Both the position numbers and the translations under genes were made by a program. 64,000 nucleotides of DNA from Euphorbia lathyris (Eukaryota; Streptophyta; Magnoliopsida; Malpighiales; Euphorbiaceae): assembly GCF_963576675.1 (NCBI RefSeq), contig NC_088919.1, positions 42,492,501 through 42,556,500 on the forward strand, read 5' to 3'. Shown in pieces: positions 4,123-34,929 of the stretch. Every line of letters starts with the position of its first letter. The first letter of the stretch is position 1. The notes beneath the pieces were generated by a model. The model saw nothing but the letters and a program-made list of their open reading frames with translations, made no database searches and had not been told where the DNA came from.

Positions 4123-4293
4123 GCAGCCCGAAGCAGAGTCTGATGCAGTCAGAGAGCAACGCCGGAGCGCGCAGCGCAAAGGTCAGGTATGTTTCCTCCT
4201 ACTCGTTACGTGTCTTTTACTTTTATATGTTTTACATTGCATGTGTTACGTTAGCAAAAACGTTTTCGAACCACACACATCACTGTCAAAATA

Positions 4294-4965: not shown

Positions 4966-4977
4966 GGATCCGTTTCC

Positions 4978-4986
4978 CTATATAAG
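4978..4986 (+). promoter_or_regulatory. LTR A TATA box
   Basis: CTATATAAG sits at the end of the U3 palindrome cluster, at the expected place for the promoter of element RNA. Equivalents are TATAAAAAG in LTR B (complement of 17074-17082), LTR C (complement of 34201-34209) and LTR D (43227-43235). Confidence 0.7.
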
Positions 4987-5681: not shown

Positions 5682-5708
5682 TTTACCGACGGATTTTCCG
5701 TCGGTAAA
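5682..5708. other. Perfect 12-bp hairpin in LTR A
   Basis: Arms TTTACCGACGGA and TCCGTCGGTAAA are separated by three bases. The hairpin is also in LTR B (16376-16402), LTR C (33504-33530) and, with paired base changes and longer arms, LTR D (43889-43921). Confidence 0.85.
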
Positions 5709-6520
5709 TCTGCCAAAATGTAAAAAATGCCATTTCAGTCCCTTTTTCTTAACTTTTAGACTTTTAATCCTTAGTATATATATATATATATATGATTATG
5801 TAATACATGTTTTTCAACTTATTTTAGAACTTTAGTATATATATCTATTTTAGAATATTTGTATATCTCTTTTTATTCTATTTTGTAATATAAGTATAAA
5901 TATATATATATGTATTTCCCTTTTTTATTAATTTAGGTTATATTTAAATATTAGTTACTTGATATTTTGAGAAATAATGAATAGACATTAGCATATGGTA
6001 TTTTTGATATTTAAACTATATTAATTATGTATATATATGTATAGTTTTTTTTAGAATTTTTGGGTTATTTTAGTGATTATTGAGTTAAATTATTTTTAGA
6101 TAAGTATTACTTTCTTAGTTATAGGATTTACTTATTATTTTCACATTTCAAAGTATAAGATATATTGTGTTTATTATCTTCATATACATATAGTGATTTT
6201 TGGTTAAATCTTATTTTCTTATCTTCCTTTTTGATTTAAATGTATACATATATATATATGGTCTAAAACCATTTTCTTTATTCTTTTGGCCCATTCATGG
6301 GTCCATGTTTCAAAAGGGCTTCATTTGAGTGTAAATGTTAGTTTATTGTAATTATAATAGTTAAAGAGTCCATTAAAGTAAGTGGGGAAAATAAATCACC
6401 AAAAAGAGAGTTTTCAATTGAATTATTTAAACTAATGTTTTTTTTAGATTTGTAATGTAAATAAATGGAGTCATTCTTGTTAATATTTCAAATCATCTTC
6501 AAAATACCAAGTTTTAAAAC

Positions 6521-6782
6521 CCTAATCCGTTCCAAAGGCGGATTAAAGGATCATTGTAATTAAAATCGTTTTCTTTGCGAATAATAGAGTTTTAAACCAT
6601 TTTCTTAAAGAATTTGTACAAAATAAAATTGACTTGTATGTTTAACCATGTTTTCTCATTAAAAGGTTTTTTTATCTCAAACGTTTTCAAATACTCGAGT
6701 CGTTCCAACGGCGATTCAGGTAAACTTCATCAAACAGGGTTTTAAAACGCACCTGAATCGTTCCAACGGCGATTAAGGTGCG
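6521..6782. other. Three stem-loops sharing loop TTCCAACGG (LTR A)
   Basis: Inverted repeats at about 6521-6549, 6692-6720 and 6748-6782 each enclose TTCCAACGG or a close variant (TTCCAAAGG in the first). The third has arms CGCACCT-AATCG and CGATT-AGGTGCG. All four Tat LTRs keep the three in the same order (D: 44619-44647, 44793-44820, 44854-44888). They lie downstream of the TATA box and so would be in the RNA leader. Confidence 0.8.
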
Positions 6783-7346
6783 AACCATGTAAATAAATCC
6801 GTTTTTGGGAAATAAGTTAGTGTAGAATAAACACACGATATAATATTTAATACGGTTGTAAATAAATCATTTCTTTCTTCCCCCTCTCTGTGTATGTATA
6901 AACATAAATGGGTGATTCTTTACTGATGTGGCTTTTCAATATCATATGCTCAAAACGGTTTCTAAAAAGAGAAAGAAAAGGGTTTCAAATGAATTTTAAA
7001 CTTAAAGAAGTATACGATTAGTCCGTTATCGCCTAACATGCTGAGTAGGAGGCCGGTGGTTCATAACCGGGCGATGTCGGGGTGCCTAGTAGCCTTTCTC
7101 CGGAAAGAAGCTAGCCTTCTCGGCTCGTACCTAAGTTTCCCGAACCCACACCGGTCTCCCGCAAGGGATCGGTGTTCATTTTCCCATTCGTGGGTGGCGA
7201 CTCTTCCATATCTCCGAGCTCCGGTCCTGCCGAGCAGCTTGATTCCACGATTGGTTGCTTTCGGCGCCAATCACCGCTTACGTCGCCATGAGGTTGTCCA
7301 CCCCCCGGTCCGCCCGGGAGATTAGGTCGCGGCACCTCGTCTAACA

Positions 7347-14718: not shown

Positions 14719-14723
14719 CCCGT
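14719..14723 (+). other. Left target duplication of Tat-3 (CCCGT)
   Basis: CCCGT here and at 34930-34934 flank Tat-3 exactly. Joining the two sides restores the Tat-2 reading frame (AKPV to KQKLR). Confidence 0.97.
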
Positions 14724-17700
14724 TGTTAGACGAGGTGCCGTGGCCTAATCTCCCGGGCGGACCGGGGGGTGGACAACCTCATGGCGACGTAAGCGGTGAT
14801 TGGCGCCGAAAGCAACCAATCGTGGAATCAAGCTGCTCGGCAGGACCGGAGCTCGGAGATATGGAAGAGTCGCCACCCACGAATGGGAAAATGAACACCG
14901 ATCCCTTGCGGGAGACCGGTGTGGGTTCGGGAAACTTGGGTACGAGCCGAGAAGGCTAGCTCCTTTCCGGAGAAAGGCTACTAGGCACCCCGACATCGCC
15001 CGGTTATGAACCACCGGCCTCCTACTCAGCATGTTAGGCGATAACGGACTAATCGTATATTTCTTTAAGTTTAAAATTCATTTGAAACCTTTTCTTTCTC
15101 ATTTTGGAAACCGTTTTGAGCATATATTATTGAAAAGCCACTTTAGTAAAGAATCACCCATTTACATCAGTTCAATATAAAAGAGAGGAGAGGAAGGAAG
15201 AAGTGGTTTATTTACAACGTGATTTACATGTCGTGTTGCGAGTTAATTCTACACTAACTTATCTCCCCAAAACGAGTTTATTTACATGGTTCGCACCTTA
15301 ATCGCCGTTGGAACGATTTAGGTGCGTTTTAAAACCCCGTTTGATGAAGTTCACGCGAATCGCCGTTGGAACGACTCGAGTGTTTGAAAACATTGAGATA
15401 AAAACTTTTAATAAGAAAACGTGGTTAAACATACAAGTCAATTTTATTTTTATACAAATCCTTTAAGAAAACGATTCAAAACTTCATTATTTACAATGAA
15501 AACAATTTTTAATTACAAGGTTCGCTTAATCCGTCGTTGGAACGGACTAAGGTTTTAAAACGCGGTGTTTTGAGAAACGATTTGAAATGTCAAGAAAACA
15601 CTATTTATTTACATTAGGAACCTCTAAAAATTCATTAGTTTAAATGATTAAATTGAAAACTCTTTTTGTGATTTATTTTCCCCTTTTTCTTTAATGGATT
15701 CTCTATGTGTCATAATTACAATAATAAACATATTTAAACCAAAATTCACTCCCAAATAAAGTCCAATTGAAATATGGACCCATAAATGGTCCAAAAGAAT
15801 AAAGGAAATAACATAAACATATATATATACATTTTAATCAAAAAAGGAATATGAAATAAAAGTTAATGGAAAGAGTTTAAATAATACATGTATGAAAATA
15901 CTAAACATAATACATTTATACTTTAAACATTCGAAAATAGTAAATAAAACTCTTAAATAAGAAAATAACATTTATCCCCAAAATAGTTTTATTTAATAGT
16001 AATTAACATAGCCCAAATATCCCAAAAACTATATGTATACATAACCAATATAATTTTAAATGTCAAAAATACTATATATTTATCCACTAATATCTATTAA
16101 TTATCTCCCAAAATGTCCAAGTAAATGACATTTAAAATAAAATCTAATATAATTCAAATGAATGAAAAAGAGAGTATATATATACATACATGTACCTATA
16201 TTTAAAAAAATAGAATAAAAAAATGATATACAAACATCCTAAATAATTATATATACTAAATGTCTAAAATAATTGGAAAATATATATTACATAACTATAC
16301 ATATATATATAAAGGATTAAAAGCTTAAAAGTTAAGAAAGATGGACTAAAATGGCATTTTTTACATTCTGGCAGATTTACCGACGGAAAATCCGTCGGTA
16401 AACAGCAATTAGTGACAGAAATGGCAAATTACAGCAGCACTCCAATTATTTCCAGATTTATTCAAAAGCTTTAAATTAAATCTAATTCAATCGTTTTGGA
16501 TTTCCGAACTACCATATATGGATCATAGTCAACAACGGAAGTTCCTAAAACGACGTTTTTATTTTAAAACGTTATTTGGAAATTCTTTAGATTAAAACTT
16601 ATAATTACAACGTTTTTAATACCCGAACTACCTTTTTATCGGATCACGGTTCGTATTGGGATATTAAAACGAGGTTTTTATTTCAAAACAAAACCGAATT
16701 TCATTCAATACGAGACGAAAATTAAATAAATACGCCAAATTAAATAAAAAGTGATAAAATAAATGAACAATTAAATGAATAAAAACATAACCTAAAAAAT
16801 AAATAGAAGAAGGAAATAAATTAAATAAAATAAAAGAGTCTAGTCCTCGGATAATACCTTAAATTCGGTATCTGACTGTCGAAGCCGATTGATTCCACGA
16901 GTCGTGATTTTCCGTTTTTTGTATTTTTTAGTAAAAATTTAACTTTGGAAAATTCGGAATTTTTAAGAAAAAAAAATATTTTTCTAAAAAAAAATCACTT
17001 TCTCTCTCTAAAAATGTCTAGAGTGAGAAAGGCTCCAAAAATCCCTCCCCCTTTCCATTGGGATCCATGCCCCCTTTTTATAGGGAAACGGGTCCCGGAG
17101 CAATGGGCGACGCCCGAGTAAAATCGGGCGTCGCCCAAAGCCGTTGGGCGGCCGCCCAACGTTACGTTGGGCTACCGCCCAACATTGTTGGGCGGCCGCC
17201 CAACGATTGTTGGGGGATCGCCTAACAATTGTTGGGCAGTCGCCCAACAGCGTTGGGCGTCCGCCCGACGCGGTTGGGCGCTCGCGCCCGCCTACCGTTG
17301 GGCTTCCGCCCGACGCGGTCGGGCATTCGCTCAACGGCCACCGGGGCGCGTCTCACGTCATCGGGCGTGCACGCCCCGCGGCCGTTGAGCTCGCGCTCCG
17401 CATCGTCGGGCGTTCATGCGTCGTGACCGCCGAGCGCGTGTTCCGCGCTGCCGGGCGCACACGCCTCGTGGCCGACGAGCGCGCATCCCGTGCCGCCAAG
17501 CTCGTGTCTTGCTCGGACACCAAGCGCGTACCATTCATGGTTGGATGCGTGCGTCCGACAGACGTCGAGCGCGCGCTTTGCGTCGTCGAGCGCGCGTCCG
17601 ACTGTCGTCGAACGCGCGCCGGCCGTTGCTAAGCACTCGCACCGTGCCGTTAAGCATTCGTGAGCTATCCGATCGACAACAGCGACCGACCGTAACTTAT

Positions 17701-17793
17701 TTATTTTATTTTTTTTTGAAACTTTCGGAATCAATCGCTTCAACCGTCTTGTTTCCAGGTTTTCGTCACAGGTCCTCCGACTCGGTGTCTACA
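14724..17793 (-). repeat. LTR B (3' LTR of Tat-3), 3070 bp
   Basis: On the element strand it starts TGTAGACACC and ends CGTCTAACA. Its U3 palindrome cluster is at about 17100-17345, the TATA box at the complement of 17074-17082, the 12-bp hairpin at 16376-16402, and the three stem-loops at 15523-15553, 15351-15382 and 15292-15326. It fuses 25 bases in frame to the Tat-2 protease frame at its left edge (stop at 14746-14748), which is a by-product of the insertion. Confidence 0.95.
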
Positions 17794-18036
17794 GTTGCCC
17801 CTACTTTTCTATTTTGACAGTGATGTGTGTGTTTTGAAAACGTTTTTTCCTAACGTAACACATGCAATGTAAAACATATAAAAGTAAAAGACACGTAAAG
17901 AGTAGGAGGAAGCATACCTGACCTTCGCGCTATGCGCTCTGGTGTCGTTCTCTGATTCCTTCCGTCGTTGTCTTTGGAGCGGCCGTCGACGAATGTTCTT
18001 TTCTCGGAATCTAGCGTACGTTGGTTATGGGTAAGA
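17794..18036 (-). other. Polypurine tract and conserved spacer of Tat-3
   Basis: The polypurine tract (complement of 17794-17809) touches the LTR. Beyond it a ~130-bp block is conserved in all three Tat elements (4180-4309 and 42640-42771). It includes CATATAAAAG on the PMD strand at about 17876, a TATA-like site upstream of the 39-bp array. No gene is seen. Confidence 0.55.
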
Positions 18037-18558
18037 ATGGCTCAAAAGCAATTTCGGTCCACGATCGTAAGTGAAATGGCTCAAAAGCAGCTCCGGTCTG
18101 CAACCGTAAATAGGATGGCTCAAAAGCGACCCTGGTCCACGACCGCGGGTAAAATGGCTCAAAAGCAACTCCGGTCTGCGACCGTGAGTCAGATGGCTCA
18201 AAAGCAACTCTGGTCTGCGACCGGGAGTCAAATGGCTCAAAAGCGACCCTGGTCCACGACCGCGGGTAGTATGGCTCAAAAGCGACCCTGGTCCACGACC
18301 GCGGGTAATATGGCTCAAAAGCAACTCAGGTCTGCGACCATGAGTCAAATGGCTCAAAAGCGACCCTAGTCCACAACCGCGGGTAATATGGCTCAAAAGC
18401 AACTCAGGTCTGCGACCATGAGTCAGATGGCTCAAAAGCAACTCCGGTCAGCGACCATGAGTAATATGGCTCAAAAGCAACTCAGGTCTGCGACCATGAG
18501 TCAGATGGCTCAAAAGCAACTCCAGTCTGCGACCATGAGTAATATGGCTCAAAAGCGG
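18037..18558 (+). repeat. 39-bp tandem array of Tat-3, 14 units
   Basis: ATGGCTCAAAAGC recurs every 39 bp exactly, first at 18037 and last at 18544, with no indels. Units alternate between a CCGGTCTGCGACCG-type core and a CCCTGGTCCACGACCGCGGG-type core. The + strand is open except for one stop (TAG at 18367-18369), repeating MAQKQLRSATVSQ-like units. The - strand is also open. The array lies upstream of the PMD promoter. From 18559 to 18900 the sequence is unique and conserved in the three copies, without a gene. Confidence 0.92.
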
Positions 18559-18900
18559 GGATTGTTTCTGGATTTTCTTACAACACTGTTGTCTGTATTT
18601 TCTCACTGGAGCTATCGTCTCGGAGGTTTAATGGGAATGTGTTTTAGTCTGGAATGATATAGACTAACGATTGTTTTTCTGTTGACTGTCGTCTGTATTT
18701 TGACTGGTGTCACTGTTCTGTAAAAATTGGCTGTTGTCTGGAGTTCATATCTTGACAATATTGGTGGCTGTCTGGGAGAAATACAGGCTGAAACAGACTG
18801 CAAATCGGAGGTCTGGGCACCCGGTAATTAATTATTTACTTTTTACCTTTATGTCAAATCGTACCTTTTTCACTATTTACGGGAATGTCATTCCCTCTTC

Positions 18901-18987
18901 CTATATAAGTTGGTGGGGTTTCATATCAACCCCACACCTTCTCTCTCTTCTTTCTCTCTCTAGACTTTGATTTGGATTATTCTCGGG
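18901..18987 (+). promoter_or_regulatory. Core promoter and leader of the Tat-3 PMD gene
   Basis: CTATATAAG at 18901-18909 is followed by a CT-rich patch (18938-18962) and the ATG at 18988. TATA box, pyrimidine patch and ATG keep the same order and distance in all three PMD copies, and the sequence upstream (GTCATTCCC, TTTTACCTTTATGTCA) is conserved as well. This suggests that the cargo gene has its own promoter. Confidence 0.7.
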
Positions 18988-21900
18988 ATGGATTTGGATG
19001 AATGGGATGGCACGAGAGGAATGGACGAGGTTTACGTGAACCTAGATAGAGTGGACCCTTTCCACGACCCTACGACACATCTGAGCCGGACACGCTGCAA
19101 CGAGGTAAGTAATTTCTCACTTTTGTTTTATTCAAATTCTAGGCTTTAGTATCCCTGTCCGAACATGATTTGCATGCTAACCTTTAGACTGCCTTAGAAG
19201 ACTTTAGCTAGAAAACATGAATTTCTTCACTTACAAGCGACACCTGTTTATTTTTGTGTGAGACTGCGCGCTATATGCATGTGAATAGTGACACTACAAA
19301 TTAAAGCACGTGAATAGTAAAAACTTAACTAATGCACGTGAATAGTGAAAACTTAACTAATGCACGTGAATAGTAAAACGTGAATAGTAAACGTGGATAG
19401 TGCACGTGAATAGTAAAACGTGAATAGTGCACGTGAATAGTGAAAACTTAACTAATGCACGTGAATAGTAAAACGTAAATAGTGCACGTGAATAGTGAAA
19501 ACTTAACTAATGCACGTGAATAGTAAAACGTGAATAGTGCACGTGAATAGTAAAAACGTGAATAGTGAAAACTTAACTAATGCACGTGAATAGTATAACT
19601 TAACCTATGCTCCTTGCCAATGCGGACGAGAGTGGATTAAAGAATGAACTAAACCTTACATGAACGACCCTAAAGGATAGATTTTTACAGGAAGTTGGTC
19701 CTAACTGACCAGATGTCTCTAGGTTAGATCATGAAAGAATACTTAGTCTTAACGCGTTCTCATCAACCGTATGCTTTAGGAATCGTATTTAAATTTTCCT
19801 ATCTTATTCTTTCTAGTTTATCGAGATCTCCGGGACCACCGCCGAGGTTCACTCATGGTATGCTAGGCAGGGTGCCACGGCGAGGGCCCGCGTGCGCGAG
19901 TTGGGCTTCGAGCCTTTTATTGCAGCGTTGCCCCGCACCAACGGGGTGTGTGATCGTTATGGCCTACGTGCCTTATGCGAGCGGTGGGTTGACTCGACCC
20001 ACACATTCCACCTTTTTTTCGGGGAGATGACCATCTCGCCCAGAGATTTTTCATTGCTGACAGGGTTGCGAGGGAGCAGCATTCCCATTCCCTTTTATTT
20101 CGATATGATGCGACCATGAGTCGACCTTGCTAGGCTCGCTGCCTTGATTGGACCGGGGGTTCGCCCATGCGCCAAGTCTACTCCGGCGAAGTTTATTTCC
20201 ACCGCGAGCCTTTTGAGTCGGCGAGATTTCTGCGAGACCGACGACACCGACTTGGCGGTTCGTAGTTTCTTGGTATATGCTCTGAGTGAGACAATTTTCC
20301 GCACGAAGGGCGGGAAGGTACACGCGGGTCTCATTCAGGCACTCAGCGATTTGGATGCGGCGGCTTCCTATGATTGGGCGGGGGCAGGCTTAGCCTTTCT
20401 CTACAAGTTTTTGGATCTGACTTGCCGGAAGCGCAAGGATTTCGGTGGTTATACCTTTGCTCTGTTGGTACGTGACGCATCCTTGACTCGCCCATTCTAT
20501 CTTCTTCGCGCTTTTCACACTTATAATCCTTGTTTTTACCGCATGTTTGGGCGTATGAGAGGCGAATTCTTCCTAGCCAGTCTCGGCCTCGGCCACGAGT
20601 ACTGAGGCTCCCTCTCATGACCCGATGGAGAGATTTTGACCTAGGCGCCGAGAGGGGACGGACTATGGCGCTGCTCCTAGATTGGATTGACTCGCGGACT
20701 CTGGGACAGGTAGATGTCGTCTAGTCGTGCTAGATTCTTGTTTGAGCCATTCTGACTTTCTCTTTGTGTATTTTTTAGATTAAGTTCAGGTGGGACGACC
20801 TTGACTTCGGTCCCGATTATATGTATGTATCTGTGATCCAGGAGCAGCAGTGCGTTCTCTTCGGTCCCTGCGTGCGGGCATGGTATTTGGGGGACCGAGG
20901 CATCACCGGGGTTAGTGACGCACACTGGACACCGGGCGAGATTCCCGTTTCTATGTTCGCGGTGCGGACCATGCCCCTGTCAGTCATCCGTCGGGACTTG
21001 ACCCGTCGGTTCGTTGGTCGAGAGGTGTGGGTTCACGCCGGGGGCCGTGCTCCTTACTTATCTACTCTGCTGAGCGCGAGGGATGCCCCGGCGGCAGCGA
21101 TGGAGGTGGATCCGGTGGCTGATGTATTTTCGAGGGAGGCTGTCGCGGCAGTCTTTGGTCAGGAGGAGGTCCTGGTAAGTGGTTCCGTCCCCTTCTTATT
21201 TCACCTTTTATTAATGAGGGGTCTTGGAGGAGTGCACATCTATCCGATTTCTTGGAGGAGTGCACATCTATCCGATTTCTTAGAGGTTTTTATTGTGTTT
21301 TTTGTTTGCAGGAGGGGTCTTGGAGGAGTGCACATCTATCCGATTTCTTTGACGGCACTCGAGCTCAGACACCTGTGTGCGAGCCACCCTACTACGTTGG
21401 CGAGTCCTCCAGCGCCGCCCGACCGGAGGGGTCTTCCCTAGGTGTGCCTGTACCGGACTACGGGAGGGATTTTGCCACGGTTTGTTACGATGAGTCCGGG
21501 GCAGCTTATGCGGGATTCGAGACGGCTCCTTCTATCTTTACCTCGAGGGTCCCATTTGATCCTTCAGATGCTTCTCTGACTACGAGGGAGACCTGTTCGG
21601 ATTATGTGGGGCTGTCTGGTTATCTCTGAGACCGCCTCAGCTTGGTATGTATCATTACTTTACTTTAGTGTAGTGGAATGTATGCATGTATGTATGATTT
21701 ATGTTCTTGCCTATGTTGTTTCTTATTTTTATCTGTTTTTCCCTTCTTTTTCTTTAGAGCGATCTACATGCCCATGAGCGGAGACAGAGCGAGTTGGTGT
21801 GGGAGGCCGATGCCTGGGTTGGTCAGGTGTACCAAGAGCGGAATGACCACTGGTCGGGGGTGATACGGCGGGAGACTGAGGGTTGCCTTGCTGCCAAGGA

Positions 21901-22075
21901 GAGAGCGCGTGATGAGTCGACTGGACGCCTTGCTGCCGAGGAGAGAGCACGAGTCACCGATGAGCGAGCACGAGTTGCCGATGAGAGAGCACGAGCTGCT
22001 GAGGAGACATTATCTGTGGAGCGGGCATCGCATTTGAGGGAGTTTGAGGCCTATTGGGACTTCCCTCCATATTAG
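18988..22075 (+). pseudogene. PMD gene of Tat-3, six exons, disabled
   Basis: Exons are 18988-19104, 19817-20467, 20545-20709, 20779-21174, 21312-21644 and 21758-22075 (117, 651, 165, 396, 333, 318 nt; 659 codons plus the stop). All introns are phase 0 with GT donors and AG acceptors, except that the second acceptor reads AT instead of AG (20543-20544). The PMD core is in exons 2-3 (RWVDSTHTFHL, EMTISPRDFSLLTGLRG, VWAYERRILPS). Exon 6 encodes an Arg/Glu/Ala-rich coiled-coil-like tail ending in DFPPY. Two in-frame stops: TGA at 20117-20119, where Tat-1 has CGA, and TGA at 21627-21629. Intron 4 holds extra copies of the start of exon 5 (about 21221-21290). The gene is antisense to gag-pol and converges with integrase. 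Confidence 0.88.
19278..19595. repeat. ACGTGAATAGT repeat array in PMD intron 1 (Tat-3)
   Basis: Repeated ACGTGAATAGT units are separated by AAAACTTAACTAATGC or run head to tail. Many contain CACGTG. The array occupies the middle of intron 1 (19105-19816). Confidence 0.92.
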
Positions 22076-22529
22076 GCTTATTATGTATTGCTTTGTAGTT
22101 TTTATTAGAGTTACCCCGATGTATAGCTGATGTATAGGGAGTGGGGTGGATAGCAGGTAGGATTTTTTGTGAAAAGTAAGATAGGAAATGTATAACTCAT
22201 GATTCATATTACCATGCATTCAGTAGATTATGATGATTCCAATCATTCTCGTCAAATATATTCATGCCTTTATTTATTTACAAACAACAGAAATACTTAG
22301 TCGCTTATACATTGTTTTTGTAATTGCTCAAGTTATAACTATTGTTACCAGGACCCGCCTTTCGGTTTTCGGATCCTGGCGATTTTTCTCCTCTCCTTTT
22401 ACTATCCCGAAATTTTCAAATGAGTGCCCTTTCGGGTTTTCACCCATTGGGATGTCCCTGACTGTTGCATAGGTCGCCCTTTGCGGGTTTTCGACCTACC
22501 GGGAATTTTTTTTTTTTTTTTTTTTTTTT
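22076..22529. other. Region between the converging PMD and integrase genes (Tat-3)
   Basis: This 454-bp stretch holds the 3' ends of both genes. At 22350-22500 three related motifs of the form GCCCTTTCGGGTTTTC recur (near 22353, 22428 and 22473), each able to form a small hairpin. A T-run (22507-22530) lies next to the integrase stop. The same three motifs occur in Tat-2 (38025-38180). A role in RNA 3'-end formation is possible but not shown. No gene is seen. Confidence 0.6.
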
Positions 22530-23626
22530 TTACGAAAAGTATTTCTTAAGCCTATCCAGGTTGGTAGGTTCGGAGAATTCCATGCCATCCATAGTAGTTA
22601 ACTTCACCGCTCCTTTGCTTAGTATCTTCTTCACGATGAATGGCCCTTCCCAGTTAGGCTTGAACTTGCCCTAGGGTCGGTATGCGTCACGCGGATCTGT
22701 TTTAGCACCATATCCCCTTCTTTGATAGGGCTGGCCTTGACCTTTTTGTTGAAGGCTCGGGCCATCCTTCTCTGATATAGCTGCACATGGTAAAGGGCTT
22801 CCATCCTTTTCTCGTCTACTAGTGCCAACTGTTCATATCGCTTCTTCACCCATTCCGTCTCGGGAATCTCTGCTTCCACTGCGATTCTCAACGATCGCTT
22901 TTCAATCTCGATCGGGAGAACGGCTTCTGCACCGTATACCAAGGAGAACGGCGTTGCCCCAGTCGAGGTTCTAACTGTCGTGCGATAAGCCCATAATGCG
23001 AGTGGGAGCTTCTCATGCCAATTCCGATGTGATTCCACCGTTTTTACGAGAATTCTCTTAAGGTTCTTATTAGCTGCTTCTACTGCCCCATTAGCTTGTG
23101 GACGGTACGGAGAAGACCTGTGATGTTCAATGCCATATTCTCGGAAAAGATTTTTTACTTCCCCCTGAAACTGGACCCCATTATCCGTAATCATGTGATG
23201 AGGCACTCCGAACCTGGTGATCAAGTGTTTCTCAATGAACTTTCTCATCTGCTTGGATCCCAATTTGCTAAACGACTCTGCCTCTATCCACTTGGTGAAG
23301 TAATCGATGGCAACTGCAATAAACTTGTGCCCATTCGAAGCATTAGGCCTTACCTCACCAATGATGTCAATGCCCCAAGCAGCGAATGGCCAAATAGGTG
23401 CTAACACATGTAATTCCATGGCCGGCAGATGACTACAATCGCCGTGGATTTGACAATCGTGGCATTTCTTCGCATACTCGTTACAATCTCTTTCCATAGT
23501 GAGCCAATAGAAGCCTTGTCTGACGATTTTCTTAGCTAACACTGCTCCTCCCATATGGGCCCCACAAATTCCCGAGTGTACAGATTCCATTGCCTCGCGG
23601 GCTTCTCCCGCATCCAAACACCTTAG
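22530..23626 (-). pseudogene. Tat-3 integrase
   Basis: DDE integrase inserting element DNA into the host genome. The zinc-binding part has H-X5-H (VHSGICGAH) and C-X2-C (CHDC). Catalytic residues are D in WGIDIIG, D in ITDNGVQF and E in NGAVEAANK. The C-terminal end (KASPIKEGDMVLKQI) is followed by a one-base loss near 22672 that shifts the frame; Tat-2 shows the intact end. An in-frame TAA at 23627-23629 (CAA in Tat-2) separates it from the RNase H part. There is no chromodomain. Confidence 0.9.
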
Positions 23627-25577
23627 TTATAACCCATCAATGTGCCTTTTGTAAAGTAAATCGTTATGGATGACTAACTGCTGAGCCAATCTTCTAATCA
23701 CAGCTTGATCTCTAGGTTCTGACTCTGCCGGATATGTTCCACTCTTCATGAAGTTCACGATGTCGAAATACCATGGCTTTTCATCTGCCCCTAATAGCAT
23801 TACGTCTTCGTAGCATGGTTTGTGAGATCTCTTCAATACCAACGGTTTCGAGGTGAGGTTCCGGGGATTGTCCCAAACTGACACCAAAGTGGCCAAAGCA
23901 TCCGCTGCCTGGTTCTGTGCTCGAGGGATATGATGAAAACGACATTCTTTGAATCTTTGTGCCAACCCATCTAGTTGGTCTAGGTATGGACGTAGCCTTT
24001 CTTCCCTTACTTCCCAGTTTCCTTGCGCCTGTTCGATGATCAGCTTTGAATCACCCCAAATTTCGACATACGATGCTCCCAGTGCTGCTAATGACTCTAA
24101 ACCATAAATGCACGCTTCATATTCGGCCATATTATTGGTGAGAGGGAAGGATAACTTTTTTGGCCATCGGGATCCTTTCTCCTTCCGGTGAAATAAGTAG
24201 TACTCCAGCTCCGGCTCCATTCGAATTAACTGCTCCGTCGAAGAACATTTTCCAGGGTATGACTTCTATTGCGTTCAAGTGTTCATCGGGGAAATCATAG
24301 CTTATCTCTTCCTCTTCTGCATTCAGGGGTTGGTTGGCCAGAAACTCTGCCACGGCCCTCCCTTTGACAACCTTCTTCGTTATATATTCAATGTCAAACT
24401 CGGATAAAAGTAGTAACCATCGGGCTAACTTCCCTGTCAAAGATGGAGTTCGGTACAGATACTTCACGGGGTCCATCCGAGAAATAATGATTACTTTATA
24501 TGATTGAAAATAATGCCGTAGTTTCTTCGTTATCCATACTACCGCTACACACGTCTTTTCGATCATGTTGTACTTGAGCTCGTACTCCAGGAACTTCTTA
24601 CTCAGATAATACACCGCGTGCTCCACACCGGTGTCTCCCTCTTGGGCCAGCATTGCCCCAATAGATCGCTCTTCAATCGCTACGTAGAGGAGAAGCGGTT
24701 TTCCTAGTTTAGGCGGTCTTAGCACTGGCGGATTAGACAAATAGTTTCGGACGCTCTCCAAAGCTTGCTGACACTTATCATTCCAGATTGTGGGTTGGTC
24801 TTTCCTTAACAACTTAAAGATTGGCTCGCAGATTGCGGTGAGTCTTGCTATGAACCGACTGATATACTGAACCTGCCATAGAAACCCTCTCACTTCTTTC
24901 TCATTCTTTGGTGCCGGCATTTCCTGTATAGCCTTCACTTTATCGGGATCTACTTCGATTCCTTTATTCCCGATTATGTAGCCTAAGATTTTCCCCGATG
25001 AAACGCCGAAAAAGCACTTCTTCGGGTTTAACCTTAGCTTGAATTCTGCAATTCGGGCCAAAAACTTCTCGAGTGCGACAAAATGCCCCTTTCTTGTCTC
25101 CGACTTGACCATCATGTCATCCACGTACACTTCTACTTCCTTGTGTATCATATCGTGGAACAGTGCTGTAGCCATTCGCTGGTAAGTTGCCCCGGCATTT
25201 TTCAAACCAAACGGCATCACTCTGTAACAGTATGTCCCCCACTCAGTTGTGAACGAGGTTTTTGCTTTGTGTTTTTCGGCCATCTGAACTTGCATGTAGC
25301 CCATGAAACCGTCCACATTCGTGTGTAAGACGCTCGATGCCGCACTGTCGATCAATACGTCAATATGAGGCAATGCGAACTCATCTTTCGGGCACGCTTT
25401 GTTAAGATCTCTATAATCAACGCACATTCTCACTTTGCCGTCTTTCTTTGCGATGGGCACCACATTTGCGACCCAAGGGGGATAGTCGATTACTTCGATG
25501 AACCCTGCTTCTAACTGCTGCTTCACTTCCTCTCTGATCTTATCTGCCCATTCTGGTCTCATACGTCGGAGCTTCTA
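23627..25577 (-). pseudogene. Tat-3 reverse transcriptase and two RNase H domains
   Basis: The reverse transcriptase has VPIAKKDGKVRMCVDYRDLN, MPFGLKNAGATYQR and the active site YVDD (about 25110). A first RNase H follows with degenerate acidic residues (LLLYVAIEERSIGAMLAQE), then a second of archaeal type with FFDGAVN, NNMAEYEA, GDSKLII and NQAADAL. This dual arrangement defines the Tat lineage. A one-base gain in a run of six (24156-24161) shifts the frame between the two RNase H domains, and a TAG at 25575-25577 (CAG in Tat-2) closes the frame upstream. Confidence 0.92.
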
Positions 25578-26917
25578 TTTTACGGGCTTCGCCTCGGGAT
25601 ATGTTGGAATGCGGTGAGTTACAATTGATTGATCAATTCCTGGCATGTCTTCGTATGTCCAAGCAAACACTATTTCGTATTTTTTAATTATTCTCTCGAA
25701 TTCTTTCCTCTCTTCAATAGTTAAATCTTGAGCAATTTGTATAAGTTTAGGATTTTCATCCGTACCAAGATTGAAAGTTGACATTTCTATTGTATTGATT
25801 TCAAATGTAGGCATGTTATATGAATGAGAATGCATGGTATGATCACGATCAACATCAAGCAAGTAAGCAAAATCAGAATTCATTGCATTGATAGTATTGG
25901 CGATTACATCATCTGATTCAAACAAAGCAGTAATACAATTTTCATCATCAAGGTTCTCGGGTTTCTCATACGCTTTGGAGGTACTGGGTTCATTCGCCGC
26001 TCCTGCAGTTGCTTCAATGGTGATGACTTGCTCCTCGGCATTCAAGTCTAACATCATAATCTCCTCGACAAAGCAACTCGCCTTTCCTTTGCCCCAGTCG
26101 GCAACATCATTGAAGATTTCGAAGCCCGGCAGAATCTTCCCTTCGGTGCTAGTCCATGACTCAGGGGTCCCTGAATAAACCTTTCCATGCCCCTCATTCA
26201 CGAAGTATTTTCTTAGGCCCACTTTTCCTTCACTACTTGCATTGGACGGACCTCCCTGCTCATATCCTAAACCCCTCCGGGTTTTCTGACTCTTAAAGTC
26301 TGGAAATTCTGGCAACCCCTGATGGTGTGCTCCTAAGCCCATTCCTGGGATGAAACCTCCCTTCATCATCTTCACCACATCAGTGGTCATGCTAGACTCG
26401 TAGATCCCAGAAACTTGGAATCCGGAGAAAAGCTGGGGCTCGATCCCCAATGCTGCCACCGAGCTCAATTTCTCTGCTCTGATTGTCACTATCTCTTCCC
26501 CGAAGGGAAACTTGATCATTTGATGGAGTGTGGAGGGCACCCCTCCCAACTTGTGGAACCATGGGCGTCCCAACAATACAGCAAAGGTTACCGGGATATC
26601 CAGCACCGTGAACTCAGTTTCTTCTTCATGCGGCCCCACTTTCAACTTGGCCTTAAAGACTCCTTCAATATGCCTTCGGCTATCATCATAAGCCCTAATC
26701 ACAGTTTCCGAGGCCGTCAAGTCTCCTCTTTCCACTCCCAGTTTAGACAAGAGTTTCAACGGGCAAACATTAATAGCCGATCCATCATCGACCATCACAC
26801 AGCTAGTCTTCTTCCCGTTAATCTCAGCTCGGATGTATAAAGGTTTGTTGTGAGCTTTTCCCTCCTCTGGGAGATCCTCGTCAGTAAACGTGATCTCGGT
26901 TTTCTTTCGAGCCATAA
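25578..26917 (-). pseudogene. Tat-3 aspartic protease region
   Basis: The protease matures the polyprotein. The active-site motif is DDGSAINVCP (near 26790), with LLGRPWF (near 26570) as the flap-side motif; a G-patch-like GMGLGAHHQG follows (near 26330). In Tat-2 this region is fused to gag. Here one G is lost just upstream (26921 region), giving TAA at 26918-26920 and an ATG at 26915 in the other frame. The long stretch after the G-patch, about 250 residues, has no domain I recognise. Confidence 0.85.
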
Positions 26918-28417
26918 TTACCCTACTAGCGCTGCCGGCTCAGTATCGGTGGAAATAACCAAATTCTGCAGCTCTTTCATCAGGTTTTCACGATGGTACT
27001 TAGAATGGCATAACACTTCCCAGACTGTGGACTTAGCTTGTGTCTTTTTCAATTGTTCAAGAACTTGATCATCAGGCTTAGGAGCCGACCCTTCCCCTAT
27101 CTCCGTCTCTACCATAGGTGCCTTTCCCTCGGCCACTCGACCTGATCTTGTCATTACGGCAATTTCCGGCTCATCATCCGATTCGTCCCAAATATTAATA
27201 GGAATCATCCGATTAGCATCCTCCTCGTCCGAAGAGCTCTCCCAAATGTCCACAATCATTAAATCCATGACGTGAGGAACGTTTGGATTCAAATAAAAGG
27301 GATCTGCTGATCCATACAAAGCCCAACCTATCAGATCGTCATAATCCCGGAGGGACACTCTACTCATCCTTCTAGCTGCTAACGGAATAGCTCCTCTCTG
27401 TATACACATAAGCTGCACCTTATCGCTCATTGTTTCGTGACACTGCTCATAACGGTGCCTCCACCTTCTAGCATAATCTACAAATGGTTCCTCGGGGAAT
27501 TGCCTGATCCTATCCAGATCCTCCAGGGATCCCGTCCATGGAACATACATCTCATATCTTGCCACAAAGGCCCTCCTAAGCGGTACCCAATGACCCATTT
27601 CCTCCTCTGATAGGCCTTGGTGCAACAACAAGGCTTCTCCCATTAACGTTTCCGGGAAATGTTCATGTAATTCACATTGCGGGAATCCGGCGTCATACAT
27701 ATGATTGCGGAATAACCTCGCGTGCTCAACAGGATCCTGGTATCCACCATACCTAGGCATTGCTAACACCGCATCGGGTGTTTGGTAAGACGGGGAATCT
27801 GGGGTTTGCTCTGCCAGCATCCATACTGTATACTCCTTGATAAATCTTTTCGTCATTGCCGCCCAATCGGTCTTAACATACATCGGCAACGACATGTACC
27901 ACATTAACGGTTCACCCATCAACGAATTACAAAACAAGCTAGTGATCTCTTCTTCTTTAAAACCCAAAGGTGCCATGGCCGATAAGTAGAAGTGAAGGTG
28001 TTCCATAGGATCTTTGTTGCCATTATACTTGCTAACTCTCGGTAACGGACACTTGATAGGTCCAATCTGCATCGCGAAGCGCTCCGCAGTTCTATCCTCG
28101 GCTCTTTGGTACTTTTCTAAGAATAAATCTGATAATTGATCCCAATCATGCTTGCAAGAGTCGGGTAATGAGTGGAACCACCCCAAAGGCTCGCCTACCA
28201 GCGAATGGTGAAACCACTGAGCAATCTCATCCACCCCGAAGGATTCAACAAACATGTCGCGCATATATTCACGCAAGTGCGCCTCGGGATTACCTCCACC
28301 ACTAAACAGACCCAATTCTGGCACAATAGTCCGAGACGACCCTTCTCCGGTCTCTTCAGCACTATCTTCATCATACGGTGCTCCACTGTCCAACCCTTCA
28401 TCCATCAGTCCACCCTC
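26918..28417 (-). pseudogene. gag: Tat-3 gag modules 2-4
   Basis: The open frame of 495 codons covers capsid-like modules 2, 3 and 4, matching 11943-13420 of Tat-2. Each module has the pattern F/Y-x-G-x2-(D/N)-P-x2-H ... G-E-x-L ... W (LFSGGGNPEAHL, KYNGNKDPMEHL, RYGGYQDPVEHA). Module 4 also has a capsid second lobe (FPEEPFVDYARRWRHRYEQC). It ends in the acidic linker and a TAA at 26918-26920 created by a one-base loss. The TAG at 28418-28420 (CAG in Tat-2) separates it from module 1. Confidence 0.88.
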
Positions 28418-29922
28418 CTATTCCTCACCAAGGAAGGACATATATATACCATTTCCTACATTGCTCTTTTCGTCAGAGTCCAACAACTCCTCTACATTCT
28501 CCTCGAAGGATTCCATCACGACACCTTCTGCCAGACCAACTCCGATCATGCTCACCCTATGATTAGGCAATGGATTACGCCTAACGGAAGGGTTCGCTGA
28601 TGAAGGATCAGCTATCTTCTTCTCCTCGATTAAATCTTGGATTTCGTGTTTCAGCCTCTCGCAGTTCTCAATTGTATGCCCATAACTGCTATGGAATTCA
28701 CAATACCCTCTAGCCTGTATCTGCGGAGTAGGTGGAGCTTTGTTATATGGGGTAAGGGCTTTCAACAATCCCTTTTTCTGCAAACGTTCGAAAACTTTTG
28801 CGTAAGTCTGATCAAACTTGGCGAACCGCCTCTTTTCAATAGCATTTAGATCAAGCACTTTCACTGCTGTGGATTCCGTACTCGCACTTGCCCTCCGGCA
28901 CTATATCCAGACTTTGTCCATTTGGTATAAGCTTTCTTTGGTTCTCCATCTCCCTCAACTGTCAAGGCACAACTGTACATCTGGTTGAAATCGGTAAAAG
29001 GCATATACCGCAGCTCATTCTTGATATACGGCAACGTGTTGCCGACTACCATTCGGATCTGATCCTGCTCAAGCGGCTTCTGCTTCATAACCGCGGCTTT
29101 GGCCCTCCATCTTTTCACAAAATCGGAGAAAGATTCCCCAGTCTGCTGCTTAGTGCTCTCTAACTCCTTCAAAGTGACCTCAAGCATGGTGTTAAAGTTA
29201 TACTGTGCAATGAATGACTTCGCTAACTCTTTCCAATCCCTCTTCGTCACCATCGGCAATGCATGAAACCATGTGAGGGCAGCCCCCTCTAGATAAGTGT
29301 TAAACAACCCCAGGACTTGATCCTCAGTCAGGATCGTGTGTTTCATCACAGCAACATACTGATTCATGTGGGCAGTGGGATCCCCAGTTCCATCGAACTT
29401 TTTCATGTCAGGGAGTCGGAATTTCAAAGGCAGAGCAGTTGCCGACAAACAATTCTTCAAGTTATAAAAGTCCTGACTCCCGGAACTTCCCCCACGTAAG
29501 TCTTGCACCTCCTGCGTGATGTGCTGTTTCCACTCCTCTTCATTAGCTTTCTCTTTCTCAAGCTGTTTTCGGATGTAATCCTGATAATCATCCTCGTTCC
29601 CAAAGCGAGGGCCATCATTCACCTCATTCTCAGCGTGCTTGCTGCCACTCTTGTCCTCCTTCATGGCCAACTTAGCTATCTGGGCCACTATCGCAGCCAA
29701 CTGCTCATTAATGTTGTTCACCGAGTTTTCCAATCCGGCCACTTTTTCGTCGGTTGCAGACATACTGATGGAAGAATGAGAATATTCGGACGAAGATGAA
29801 TTAGAAGCCACAATTGCTGATTCGGGACTGTCAATCTATAGCTGATCAAACTGTCTAACTAGCCTACTGCTCTCTCGGTACCACAACCGCTTAATGATGA
29901 CGTCTGCGCGAATGGTATCCAT
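28418..29922 (-). pseudogene. gag: Tat-3 gag module 1 and zinc knuckle
   Basis: The start ATG (29922) corresponds to the one at 8301 in Tat-2. Module 1 has KKFDGTGDPTAHMNQY; the zinc-knuckle-like C-X2-H-X4-H-X4-C is near 28690. A TAG at 29836-29838 replaces a CAG, and a one-base loss near 28893 shifts the frame between the capsid and the knuckle. The relation between module 1 and modules 2-4 is the same as in Tat-2. Confidence 0.88.
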
Positions 29923-31831
29923 TAGTATGTATGCATGATTTTATATGCATGATTCATGGTGTGTGCGTTTATTATTTACGGATATATAAGATAAGAAGAA
30001 CAAACGTTAGTCTAATTACACGTATCACAACATCTCTCTTCCACCCTTATTCCTCCACACACTCGATGGTCCAAGTCTCTTTCCTAGGATTTTGGTTTTG
30101 GGCTCACATTGCGGTCCAGGGGACGCGTGATGCCGTTGATTATTGCGGAAAAAGTAAATCATCCATCAGACAACACAGTTCGTTTTGACGTATCAACGTT
30201 CAGTGACTAAGAAATTGACCAAGTTGGATTGTCCTTTCGGAATAACTCGTCTTTTATCCTTTCGTGAGACGCATTAATTCGGGTTTTGACTCCCTTTGAG
30301 CGCATCTCAGTTTTTAGACGCGGTACGAGTTATTCTTTTAGTCCAATCGTTCGTTATTGTCAATGACTCGTTCCCTTTTATTCGCGTGGGTTCGTATCTC
30401 GATTTTTGGATTACAACGGGATCTTTTGGATCTATCGAGAGACGTAACCACGTGTTTATTTAGTGATGAGATCACTTTTGAATTTAGGGAACGGACTCAT
30501 CGCGTAACGCGTTCGTTTTTAGCGTTAAGACTCCGTTTGCTCGTTTTGGCTACGTGAAAAGACGGCGAGTCTTATTTGAGTGTATGGTAATCTTTCGGCT
30601 AATCACTACTCTTTATTCCTTCTAATCTACGGGACATATCATCTTAGCGTGGTTATAGAAAATCAACGTTTCGTTGAATCGCGTGCTTATTCGAAGCATG
30701 GATATTACCGTTCTTTTTCATTTAGGCACAAGTTTAAGCAAACATGCATATCGGGCCATATTTCTTGTAGTTTTGGTAACGGTCGAAATGATCGAGCCAT
30801 TAGTCAAATCCACAGCCTCGTCCATATGGTGCGATAATGCGGTTTAGCTTAATTCGGCTTTGTGATTTTAAACGGCGTATATACCAGTTCGAGGCACGTA
30901 TTTAACGGCATTGGTTTATTTTCTTTAACTACTCTCGGGATTGACATATATCGTAGATACAGAAGGGTTTTGGTCGTTTATTTATTTTTTCTTATTTTCT
31001 TAGTCACTTTTGCGGATACGTCCATTTCTCTTAAGAACGACACAAGACATAACGCAAGAGCTCGTCTTTTATTCGGAAAGGGACGGGTCTTGTTTGCGAA
31101 ACTCTTTACGTTACAACGGGGTCATTCGAAACAGAAATGTTCTTCGTTTTCGTTTCGTCATAATTTCGTTTTATCCCAACCTATTTAAAGAATGTGAATA
31201 ACGGCTACTCGTTAATATAGTCTTTTGAATCAAGATATAACTATCCTTAATACCAAACCGATTCATACTAATACGTGCTTACGTCATAACGTATTTCCTA
31301 AACCTGTGCCTTCTTCGGGACACGGAAAGGGACCAGGCGGGTCGCACAAGTTCATTCATACGAGATGGCTAAGTCGTCTTTAGTTCGAATTGTTTCAATA
31401 TTTGGGGTAGTTTATATATCGGTTTAAGAGTATATATTAACGCATCGTTTCATTTTCTTTACATATGTTAGGATTAGACACGTATCATGGCAATTTGAAA
31501 ACACGAACTGATTCATTCATCACATCAAAAATGGTAACGGGTAATCCTATGGCAACTTCTAAGGCTACTATATGCTGACACGGCTGATCGCGGGACCTCA
31601 CAGGACCGCACAAATTCGCCCCTAACGAATGGATGGGGACCCTTTGGCGCCTTACTGTAAGGGGGAACTTACACTAGCCTCTTTCGAGCGACGAATGGAC
31701 TCTCGCTAGAGGTTTCGCGGAAATTACCCAAAAGGTTTGCAATAATGCGTATGAATGCATACGAAAAGAAATAATACGATCCGTCCCCGTTAAGGGCTTA
31801 ATACACGCCTTTCGAAATCAAATTTCTCGCT
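29923..31831 (-). other. Leader (5' untranslated region) of Tat-3
   Basis: This ~1.9 kb stretch lies between primer-binding site and gag. The part next to gag (to about 30210) is conserved in Tat-2. Short frames on the + strand (for example 30862-31188) show no domain and are not counted. I see no gene. Confidence 0.65.
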
Positions 31832-31849
31832 TCCCCAGCAGAGTCGCCA
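31832..31849 (-). other. Primer-binding site of Tat-3
   Basis: On the element strand TGGCGACTCTGCTGGGGA begins two bases after the 5' LTR end (31852). This is the usual place for the tRNA that primes reverse transcription. The sequence resembles sites of Ogre/Tat elements; I cannot name the tRNA with certainty. Confidence 0.8.
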
Positions 31850-31851
31850 CT

Positions 31852-34800
31852 TGTTAGACGAGGTGCCGCGGCCTAATCTCCCGGGCGGACCGGGGGGTGG
31901 ACAACCTCATGGCGACGTAAGCGGTGATTGGCGCCGAAAGCAACCAATCGTGGAATCAAGCTGCTCGGCAGGACCGGAGCTCGGAGATATGGAAGAGTCG
32001 CCACCCACGAATGGGAAAATGAACACCGATCCCTTACGGGAGACCGGTGTGGGTTCGGGAAACTTGGGTACGAGCCGAGAAGGCTAGCTCCTTTCCGGAG
32101 AAAGGCTACTAGGCACCCCGACATCGCCCGGTTATGAACCACCGGCCTCCTACTCAGCATGTTAGGCGATAACAGACTAATCATATATTTCTTTAAGTTT
32201 AAAATTCATTTGAAACCTTTTCTTTCTCATTTTGGAAACCGTTTTGAGCATATATTATTGAAAAGCCACTTTAGTAAAGAATCACCCATTTACATCAGTT
32301 CAATATAAAAGAGAGGAGAGGAAGGAAGAAGTGGTTTATTTACAACGTGATTTACATGTCGTGTTGCGAGTTAATTCTACACTAACTTATCTCCCCAAAA
32401 TGAGTTTATTTACATGGTTCGCACCTTAATCGCCGTTGGAACGATTTAGGTGCGTTTTAAAACCCCGTTTGATGAAGTTCACTCGAATCGCCGTTGGAAC
32501 GACTCGAGTGTTTGAAAACATTGAGATAAAAACTTTTAATAAGAAAACGTGGTTAAACATACAAGTCAATTTTATTTTTATACAAATCCTTTAAGAAAAC
32601 GATTCAAAACTTCATTATTTACAATGAAAACGATTTTTAATTACAAGGTTCGCTTAATCCGTCGTTGGAACGGACTAAGGTTTTAAAACGCGATGTTTTG
32701 AGAAACGATTTGAAATGTCAAGAAAACACTATTTATTTACATTAGGAACCTCTAAAAATTCATTAGTTTAAATGATTAAATTGAAAACTCTTTTTGTGAT
32801 TTATTTTCCCCTTTTTCTTTAATGGATTCTCTATGTGTCATAATTACAATAATAAACATATTTAAACCAAAATTCACTCCCAAATAAAGCCCAATTGAAA
32901 TATGGACCCATAAATGGTCCAAAAGAATAAAAGAAATAACATAAATATATATATATACATTTTAATCAAAAAAGGAATATGAAATAAAAGTTAATGGAAA
33001 GAGTTTAAATAATACATGTATGAAAATACTAAACATAATACATTTATACTTTAAACATTCGAAAATAGTAAATAAAACTCTTAAATAAGAAAATAACATT
33101 TATCCCCAAAATAGTTTTATTTAATAGTAATTAACATAGCCCAAATATCCCAAAAACTATATGTATACATAACCAATATAATTTTAAATGTCAAAAATAC
33201 TATATATTTATCCACTAATATCTACTAATTATCTCCCAAAATGCCCAAGTAAATGACATTTAAAATAAAATCTAATATAATTCAAATGAATGAAAAAGAG
33301 AGTATATATATACATACATGTACCTATATTTAAAAAAATAGAATAAAAAAATGATATACAAACATCCTAAATAATTATATATACTAAATGTCTAAAATAA
33401 TTGGAAAATATATATTACATAACTATACATATATATATAAAGGATTAAAAGCTTAAAAGTTAAGAAAGATGGACTAAAATGACATTTTTTACATTCTGGC
33501 AGATTTACCGACGGAAAATCCGTCGGTAAACAGCAATTAGTGACAGAAATGGCAAATTACAGCAGCACTCCAATTATTTCCAGATTTATTCAAAAGCTTT
33601 AAATTAAATCTAATTCAATCGTTTTGGATTTCCGAACTACCAAATATGGATCATAGTCAACAACGGAAGTTCCTAAAACGACGTTTTTATTTTAAAACGT
33701 TATTTGGAAATTCTTTAGATTAAAACTTATAATTACAACGTTTTTAATACCCGAACTACCTTTTTATCGGATCACGGTTCGTATTGGGATATTAAAACGA
33801 GGTTTTTATTTCAAAACATAACAGAATTTCATTCAATACGAGACAAAAATTAAATAAATACGCCAAATTAAATAAAAAGTGATAAAATAAATGAACAATT
33901 AAATGAATAAAAACATAACCTAAAAAATAAATAGAAGAAGGAAATAAATTAAATAAAATAAAAGAGTCTAGTCCTCGGATAATACCTTAAATTCGGTATC
34001 TGACTGTCGAAGCCGATTGATTCCACGAGTCGTGATTTTCCGTTTTTTGTATTTTTTAGTAAAAATTTAACTTTGGAAAATTCGGAATTTTTGAGAAAAA
34101 AAAATATTTTTCTCAAAAAAAATCACTTTCTCTCTCTAAAAATATCTAGAGTGAGAAAGGCTCGAAAATTTCTCCCCCTTTCCATTGGGATCCGTGCCCC
34201 CTTTTTATAGGGAAACGGGTCCCGGAGCAATGGGCGACGCCCGAGTAAAATCGGGCGTCGCCCAAAGCCGTTGGGCGGCCACCCAAGGCTTGTTGGGCGG
34301 CCGCCCAACGATTGTTAGGCGATCGCCCAACAATTGTTGGGCGGTCGCCCAACGCGGCGTTGGGCGAGCGCCCAACGCGAGGTTGGGCGCGTGCGCCCAA
34401 CTGCCGTTGGGCGTCCGCCCGATGCGGTTGGGCGCTCGCGCCCGCCTACCGTTGGGCTTCCGCCCGACGCGGTCGGGCATTCGCTCAACGGCCGCCGGGG
34501 CGCGTCTCACGTCGTCGGGCGTGCACGCCCCGCGGCCGTCGAGCTCGCGCTCCGCATCGTGACCACCGAGCGCGTGTTCCGCGCTGCCGGGCGCACATGC
34601 CTCATGGCCGATGAGCGCGCGTCCCGTGCCGCCAAGATCGTGTCTTGCTCGGACACCAAGCGCGTACCATTCATGGTTGGATGCGTGCGTCCGACAAACG
34701 TCGAGCGCGCGCTTTGCATCGTCGAGCGGGCGTCCGACTGTCGTCGAACGCGCGCCGACCGCTGCTAAGCACTCGCACCGTGCCGTTAAGCATTCGTGAG

Positions 34801-34929
34801 CTATCCGATCGACAACAGCGACCGACCGTAACTTATTTATTTTATTTTTTTTTGAAACTTTCGGAATCAATCGCTTCAACCGTCTTGTTTCCAGGTTTTC
34901 ATCACAGGTCCTCCGACTCGGTGTCTACA
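31852..34929 (-). repeat. LTR C (5' LTR of Tat-3), 3078 bp
   Basis: Nearly identical to LTR B over the AT-rich part and U5. The two differ mostly in the GC-rich U3 (34228-34570 against 17100-17440), where the numbers of palindromes and short segments differ. The hairpin is at 33504-33530 and the stem-loops at 32652-32681, 32480-32511 and 32421-32455. Confidence 0.95.

Follow-up and report, generated by a model that had tools for sequence, protein, structure and literature searches.

An antisense, intron-bearing plant mobile domain gene in a Tat/Ogre-like retrotransposon family of Euphorbia lathyris

Introduction

The plant mobile domain (PMD) is the most frequent extra domain of LTR elements across 121 genomes (PMC9289625) and occurs in 57% of Ogre elements, which, like Retand, belong to the Tat group, in which an additional RNase H (aRH) separates RNase H from integrase (PMC6317226). 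The PMD-A clades are described as exclusive to Gypsy elements across the angiosperms, and the question of whether host or Gypsy had the domain first is left open by Ikeda 2017 (PMC5418596). Antisense ORFs between pol and the 3' LTR, adjoined by tandem repeats, are described for Retand, where they carry TRP28, for maize Grande (gene23) and for RIRE2; a nuclear protein or, in Grande, an own promoter is reported for this group, whose products hold TRP28 or no known domain and whose origin is called unknown (PMC11963269; PMC7264820). A review of such ORFs calls for looking for spliced transcripts (PMC7264820). The main texts of PMC7264820 and PMC5418596 do not contain the word 'intron', and in PMC6317226 it refers to the sense intron of Ogre, between GAG-PROT and RT. 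No paper among those listed by a literature search, which did not extend to the survey by Steinbauerova et al. 2011 (Genetica 139:1543), describes introns for an antisense gene with PMD.

The locus described here shares its domain and element group with the PMD-bearing Ty3/gypsy elements (Ogre extra ORFs, PMD-A1/A2; PMC6317226, PMC5418596); those surveys sought uninterrupted frames (at least 250 codons in PMC6317226), whereas here there are six exons with conserved splice sites. Strand, position and adjoining repeats are as in Retand, Grande and RIRE2, but the domain is PMD and its origin is traceable via shared introns. The Ogre intron is likewise a spliceosomal intron in a Tat element, yet it lies in the sense RNA and so must persist by partial splicing (PMC6317226), whereas the introns of the PMD gene are antisense. 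MULE elements with a captured PMD gene also combine a mobile element with this domain (PMC5418596). DNA transposons of that kind can carry introns in either strand; the element here replicates through RNA, and only an antisense gene can therefore keep its introns. That PMD occurs in Tat elements, and that some of these carry antisense ORFs, had both been raised in an initial annotation of the locus, the former tentatively, and are published; the sharing of introns with other PMD genes is new here.

Results

Three nested elements

The window, by which is meant the whole 64,000-nt stretch of DNA analysed (C10:42492501-42556500), includes parts of two LTR retrotransposons, A and C, and the whole of a third, B. 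Positions are those of the window and negative positions lie to its left.

14724..34929, minus strand: element B, complete Tat-type LTR retrotransposon (LTR pair, target duplication, domains)
14724..17793, minus strand: element B 3' LTR (96.6% identity to the other LTR)
17959..18635, no strand: 39-bp tandem repeat array between the 3' LTR and PMD gene of B (repeat family D3)
22631..26939, minus strand: element B pol block with protease/G-patch, RT, RNase H, second RNase H and integrase (Pfam)
22631-23626, minus strand: element B integrase (Pfam)
23627-24265, minus strand: element B second RNase H (aRH; RVT_3), between RT_RNaseH and rve (Pfam)
31852..34929, minus strand: element B 5' LTR (LTR pair; primer binding site next)
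4310..7346, plus strand: element A 3' LTR (98.7% LTR identity)
42774..45450, plus strand: element C 3' LTR, start approximate (LTR comparison)

Paired LTRs and a 5-bp target duplication, as expected of LTR retrotransposons, were found for all three elements, the duplication being exact in A (CGCGT) and B (CCCGT, at 14719-14723 and 34930-34934) and having one difference in C (ACAAC and ACAGC). Element B holds gag besides its protease with G-patch, RT, two RNase H domains and integrase, and its primer binding site lies at about 31832-31850, directly after the 5' LTR; the Pfam match to aRH between RNase H and integrase marks it as Tat-type. Element A spans -13438 to 7346 and element C about -25133 to 45450, such that C encloses both of the others (C pieces at window 7352-14718 and 34935-45450): A is inserted in the same orientation ahead of the gag of C, and B in the opposite orientation between its protease and RT. 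The LTRs differ by 1.3% in A and 3.4% in B, which at the substitution rates assumed for LTR dating (1.3e-8 and 7e-9) gives insertion ages of about 0.5-1.0 My and 1.4-2.5 My respectively. Tandem repeats separate the gene from the 3' LTR in A, B and C (2796-4124, 17959-18635 and 41892-42571), with a period of 39 bp in A and B and steps of 83 and 39 bp in C. To the right of element C, at window 47617-50609, there are frames that were named by eye as resembling a Ty1/copia element.

Structure of the PMD gene

Each of the three nested elements has a PMD gene of six exons and five introns, all of phase 0, which is placed antisense in the stretch from integrase to the 3' LTR; here the gene models bear out the initial annotation.

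18902..18908, plus strand: TATATAA, 86 nt ahead of the B PMD-gene ATG (sequence; same spot in 22/23 copies)
18988..19104, plus strand: B exon 1, 117 nt (gene model)
19817..20467, plus strand: B exon 2, 651 nt, PMD begins here, in-frame stop (gene model, Pfam)
20545..20709, plus strand: B exon 3, 165 nt, preceding acceptor lost (gene model)
20779..21174, plus strand: B exon 4, 396 nt (gene model)
21312..21644, plus strand: B exon 5, 333 nt, in-frame stop (gene model)
21758..22075, plus strand: B exon 6, 318 nt (gene model)
2366..2482, minus strand: A exon 1 (gene model)
906..1556, minus strand: A exon 2, PMD (gene model, Pfam)
664..828, minus strand: A exon 3 (gene model)
196..591, minus strand: A exon 4 (gene model)
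1..123, minus strand: A exon 5, first part (gene model; continues to -227, left of the window, L009)
-345 to -683, minus strand: A exon 6 (gene model; left of the window, L009)
41334..41450, minus strand: C exon 1 (gene model)
39942..40593, minus strand: C exon 2, 652 nt, frameshifted (gene model)
39702..39866, minus strand: C exon 3 (gene model)
39241..39636, minus strand: C exon 4 (gene model)
38820..39170, minus strand: C exon 5 (gene model)
38442..38717, minus strand: C exon 6 (gene model)

The gene thus runs from 2482 down to -683 in A and from 41450 to 38442 in C, both on the minus strand. Across the introns of the three copies, the donor is GT in 15/15 cases and the acceptor AG in 14/15, and G+C content is 50-61% in exons and 26-44% in introns. 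Only A is open throughout, with all of its introns GT-AG. Copy B, on which the initial annotation was centred, is itself broken (stops in exons 2 and 5, intron 2 acceptor not AG), as is C, and that two of the three window copies are broken had been overlooked. The plan of 117, 651, 165 and 396 nt for exons 1-4, proposed as common to all three, holds for A and B; exon 2 of C, at 652 nt, carries a frameshift, so it is not the case that every exon is a multiple of three. Nor are exons 5 and 6 variable as had been thought: their lengths are 351 and 339 nt in 18/23 family copies, from which B and C deviate. The TATATAA motif stands at -86 in 22 of the 23 copies, C included, and is absent from one (L053).

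Exon 2 of A scores 68.7 bits against the Pfam PMD profile (PF10536), above the curated cut-off of 34.9, and the 3' half of B exon 2 scores 37.1 bits. Exons 2-4 of A together reach 90.4 bits while covering only positions 21-242 of the 347 in the profile, and exon 4 alone gave no Pfam match. The presence of PMD, the typical extra domain of Ogre, is a point of likeness to Ogre as against Retand, and TRP28 (PF04195), the domain of Retand antisense ORFs, had no match in the predicted protein P0003 or in the exons scanned.

The family across the genome

A family search with A exon 2 as the query gave 3220 candidates, the 150 best-scoring of which were scored and are 94-100% alike; 145 of these 150 have no stop in exon 2, and at least 150 scored copies are spread over all ten large contigs. 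A further 20 copies, hand-chosen over the list and the contigs and including three with stops on purpose, were fetched and aligned with A, B and C, giving 23 copies in a sample that is biased to intact copies because it was drawn from the 150 best candidates. Exons 1-4 have exactly 117/651/165/396 nt in 20/23 copies, whereas intron 1 ranges from 605 to 893 nt; given this contrast, and the constraint on GT/AG, the exon plan stands above chance. Ten of the 23 copies are fully open with all ten splice dinucleotides, and 13 have lesions. Integrase lies downstream on the other strand at 19/20 fetched loci; together with the at least 150 scored places, this answers, within this genome, the concern that no such element would exist elsewhere. 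The exception, L046, has an insertion in its tail and was excluded from rate and splice-site counts, and C was excluded from within-family counts. At one place (G000:C1:73729843-73802381), six near-identical exon 2 copies lie in the same orientation about 13.6-14.7 kb apart, a tandem amplification.

Selection on the frame and the splice sites

Purifying selection was found on both the frame and the splice sites. Pooled Nei-Gojobori dN/dS is 0.154 over 21 copies (210 pairs) and 0.159 among the 10 open copies; pairwise values are 0.103 (A-B), 0.123 (A-C) and 0.143 (B-C), with 0.125 for C against the open copies, the synonymous estimates that involve C being near saturation. The range of 0.10-0.16 is not near 1, the value that the initial annotation had named as telling against the gene. 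By exon, from 1 to 6, the values over 21 copies are 0.04, 0.10, 0.22, 0.14, 0.19 and 0.30. Contrary to the suggestion that the tail diverged while the PMD core stayed, the tail too is constrained, at 0.19 and 0.30 in exons 5 and 6, although exon 6 rises to 0.46 in the set of 10 open copies. Letters that depart from the majority make up 2.5% of first, 2.0% of second and 8.2% of third codon positions, the third position varying 3-4 times more than the other two. The same measure gives 5.3% in introns 2-5 (350/6589 other cells) against 0.7% at GT/AG dinucleotides (3/420 cells; Fisher P 8e-7).

Between A and B, dS is 0.68 in the PMD gene and 0.47-0.69 in protease, RT-RNase H and integrase, which indicates that the gene travels with pol and is equally old in the element lines; pol has a dN/dS of 0.03-0.06, the PMD gene being somewhat less constrained. 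Synonymous divergence (dS 0.17-0.68) exceeds that of the introns (K 0.08-0.23), but this is not peculiar to the PMD gene, as the pol of the same elements has a like dS. Among open copies, the flanks (600 nt upstream and 350 nt downstream of the gene) vary by 3.5% and 2.5%, transitions and transversions combined, against 8.3% in introns 2-5 and 11.8% at fourfold sites; this low variation of the flanks may reflect constraint or exchange. That this is a selected, intron-bearing antisense gene is considered very likely.

Survival of the introns and predicted transcripts

In 1.02 Gb, neither the spliced exon 2|3 junction nor the spliced exon 3|4 junction had a match (patterns of 32 and 29 letters with up to 3 mismatches, which would miss more diverged spliced copies), while the unspliced end of exon 2 with its donor matched 1783 times genome-wide with a shorter and looser pattern (23 letters, 2 mismatches). 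This fits the earlier proposal that antisense placement keeps the introns. One full-length NCBI model joins the same exons. This protein, P0003, is 704 aa long and 82% alike across the full query; each of its five junctions agrees with the prediction, apart from an exon 3 that is shorter by four residues. Exons 2, 5 and 6 of P0003 match a single element copy on contig C2 at 99-100%. P0005, P0007, P0008 and P0009 agree at the junctions that they cover, whereas three of the seven E. lathyris models read across their PMD part differ: P0004 has an altered exon 3|4 join, P0006 keeps part of intron 2 and P0010 skips exon 2. The N-terminal parts of P0003 and P0006 hint, as an alternative to a start at the TATA box, at a leader exon farther upstream. 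The NCBI models are indirect evidence and may be predictions made without reads, although the isoform names suggest read support.

When proteins were searched with exon 2, with the spliced product of A and with an alignment (about 8000 candidates scored; 2, 11 and 11 matches respectively), the matches listed beyond E. lathyris were P0002 (40% over 56%) and Rhodiola P0013 (29% over 32%), and no relative was confirmed in viral_contigs. AlphaFold on P0003, with nine sequences, gave a pLDDT of 34.8, too low for any fold search.

Introns shared with other PMD genes

Two low-copy PMD genes of the same genome, L006 and L007, have phase-0 introns, and that some of these are common to the element gene had been overlooked. 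Both are taken to be putative host genes, not element parts, an assignment that rests on low copy number and, for L006, the full-length domain (377 bits against PF10536, compared with 88-90 bits for the element protein); for L007, the stretch read extends to the end of exon 3. A host-only profile was built from L006, L007, L008 and Rhodiola P0013. Against this profile, host and element coincide in the position of intron 2 (LLQ^CW in L006, ALL^VW in A) and in that of intron 3, at model positions 299|300. Intron 3 also falls at Pfam 238|239 in both, in the case of A by counting back four residues from the match end. For intron 1, placed by extrapolation only, Pfam gives equal positions and the host profile a difference of two residues. 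In a plain MAFFT alignment, intron 2 alone falls in the same column, intron 1 being displaced by nine columns and intron 3 by fifteen. Exon 2 encodes 217 aa in the element against 215 in the host gene, and exon 3 encodes 55 against 56. In a simulation with 2,000,000 random placements, only 2 brought the three introns to within one codon of each counterpart and into the same phase; because the position of intron 1 is uncertain by about two residues, this figure is not taken as a probability. The element gene therefore has introns 2 and 3, and exons 2 and 3 of near-equal length, in common with plant PMD genes (MAIN, MAIL1; L006 and L007 here), but differs from them in exons 4-6, in its score against the domain and in standing in hundreds of copies.

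Other PMD genes of the genome are built differently. L001-L004 (four within 0.2 Mb, G000:C2:96558736-96770266) and L005 have PMD whole in one frame and no introns. L008 has intron 3 at the common position, its sole shared intron, and no intron 2, and the frame ahead of its PMD gene resembles the N-terminal region of a MULE transposase. Elements of that type that have captured a PMD gene exist, and L008 may be one of them.

Discussion

The observations are best explained by an accessory PMD gene of host structure in a Tat/Ogre-like family, with its own TATA box and spliced to a protein of ~670 aa, a reading that is considered probable. Judging from the conserved signals, transcription would begin at the TATA box and head away from the 3' LTR, and the splicing of six exons would yield a ~670 aa protein composed of PMD and a charged, predicted helical tail. 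The genomic RNA would hold the complement of the introns only, which the spliceosome would not cut, such that each reverse transcription would copy them. Since a spliced mRNA would have lost its introns, the gene would have entered (or left) the element as DNA.

Given that the LTRs of A and B differ by 1.3% and 3.4%, little decay is expected since insertion, and with lesions in 13/23 copies it could be argued that a captured gene rides along unused, its frame intact only because the copies are young. This is quite improbable: A and C are 1.95 synonymous changes per site apart (the estimate used) yet dN/dS is 0.12, it is 0.10 between A and B, and the splice sites are also kept; low dN/dS in the face of such synonymous change indicates that selection acted on the lines leading to A, B and C. 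A role for the antisense RNA rather than a protein, with transcription from the TATA box giving double-stranded or interfering RNA, would agree with the low variation of both flanks, the upstream one containing the TATA box (3.5% and 2.5% against 8.3% in introns 2-5, open copies), and such roles are discussed for these elements (PMC7264820). However, it leaves the codon-position pattern, the exon lengths and the splice sites unexplained, and as a replacement for a protein role it is improbable, although the two roles may both hold. Finally, the proposal that a host gene lies by chance beside old element pieces, or that the gene is an artefact of gene finding, draws on the annotation of some copies by NCBI as ordinary genes. 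The copy number (at least 150 scored copies on all ten large contigs) and the placement of the A and B copies inside complete elements with target duplications refute it, and its probability is negligible.

The shared introns might also have arisen independently in the element gene and be silent on its origin. Intron 1 lies in a poorly alignable stretch, and the MAFFT displacement of introns 1 and 3 could be read in this way; nevertheless, intron 2 keeps its MAFFT column, introns 2 and 3 keep their host-profile positions, intron 3 its Pfam position, the lengths of exons 2 and 3 nearly agree and all introns are of phase 0, so that independent gain is very improbable. A common origin of introns 2 and 3 is strongly favoured. 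It implies that the element and host kinds of the gene parted as intron-bearing DNA and that the gene and its introns are old and moved as DNA. The shared introns do not say by themselves whether the transfer was from host to Gypsy or the reverse.

With regard to function, MAIN and MAIL1 act in silencing in Arabidopsis, where their mutants release silencing (PMC5418596, PMC7156037), and this makes their relative in the element a natural candidate for counter-silencing. By analogy, its most likely role would be that of a nuclear protein that meets the host MAIN/MAIL silencing pathway as a decoy or modifier, favouring the element; with the domain as its basis, such a counter-silencing role is nonetheless rather unlikely. 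The introns may also help the mRNA pass as a host mRNA. In Arabidopsis, the silencing of a transgene is lessened by an intron or its splicing (Christie 2011, cited in PMC7960677), and HUSH silences intronless DNA in human cells (PMC8770142), for which reasons a spliced gene may be useful to the element. It is suggested, tentatively and with more doubt than confidence, that the element has long carried, perhaps since early angiosperms, a host silencing-type gene with its ancestral introns and has used it against MAIN/MAIL-type silencing. On this view, the shared introns would show that the exchange of PMD between host and Gypsy took place at the DNA level, a point that matters for the question of which came first in Ikeda 2017.

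Introns are the mark by which a gene is told from copied RNA. Here, a selected gene has retained five of them at well over a thousand sites although its carrier multiplies via RNA, and it has done so by lying on the opposite strand. Surveys for uninterrupted ORFs split such a gene into pieces, and thanks to the shared introns the origin of Gypsy PMD genes can be tested through intron positions across plants. There is also a warning for annotators, in that copies of the element gene stand in NCBI as ordinary plant genes. On contig C5, P0006 and P0010, which are named isoforms, have a gag-like frame upstream that is fused via a 5' leader to the PMD exons.
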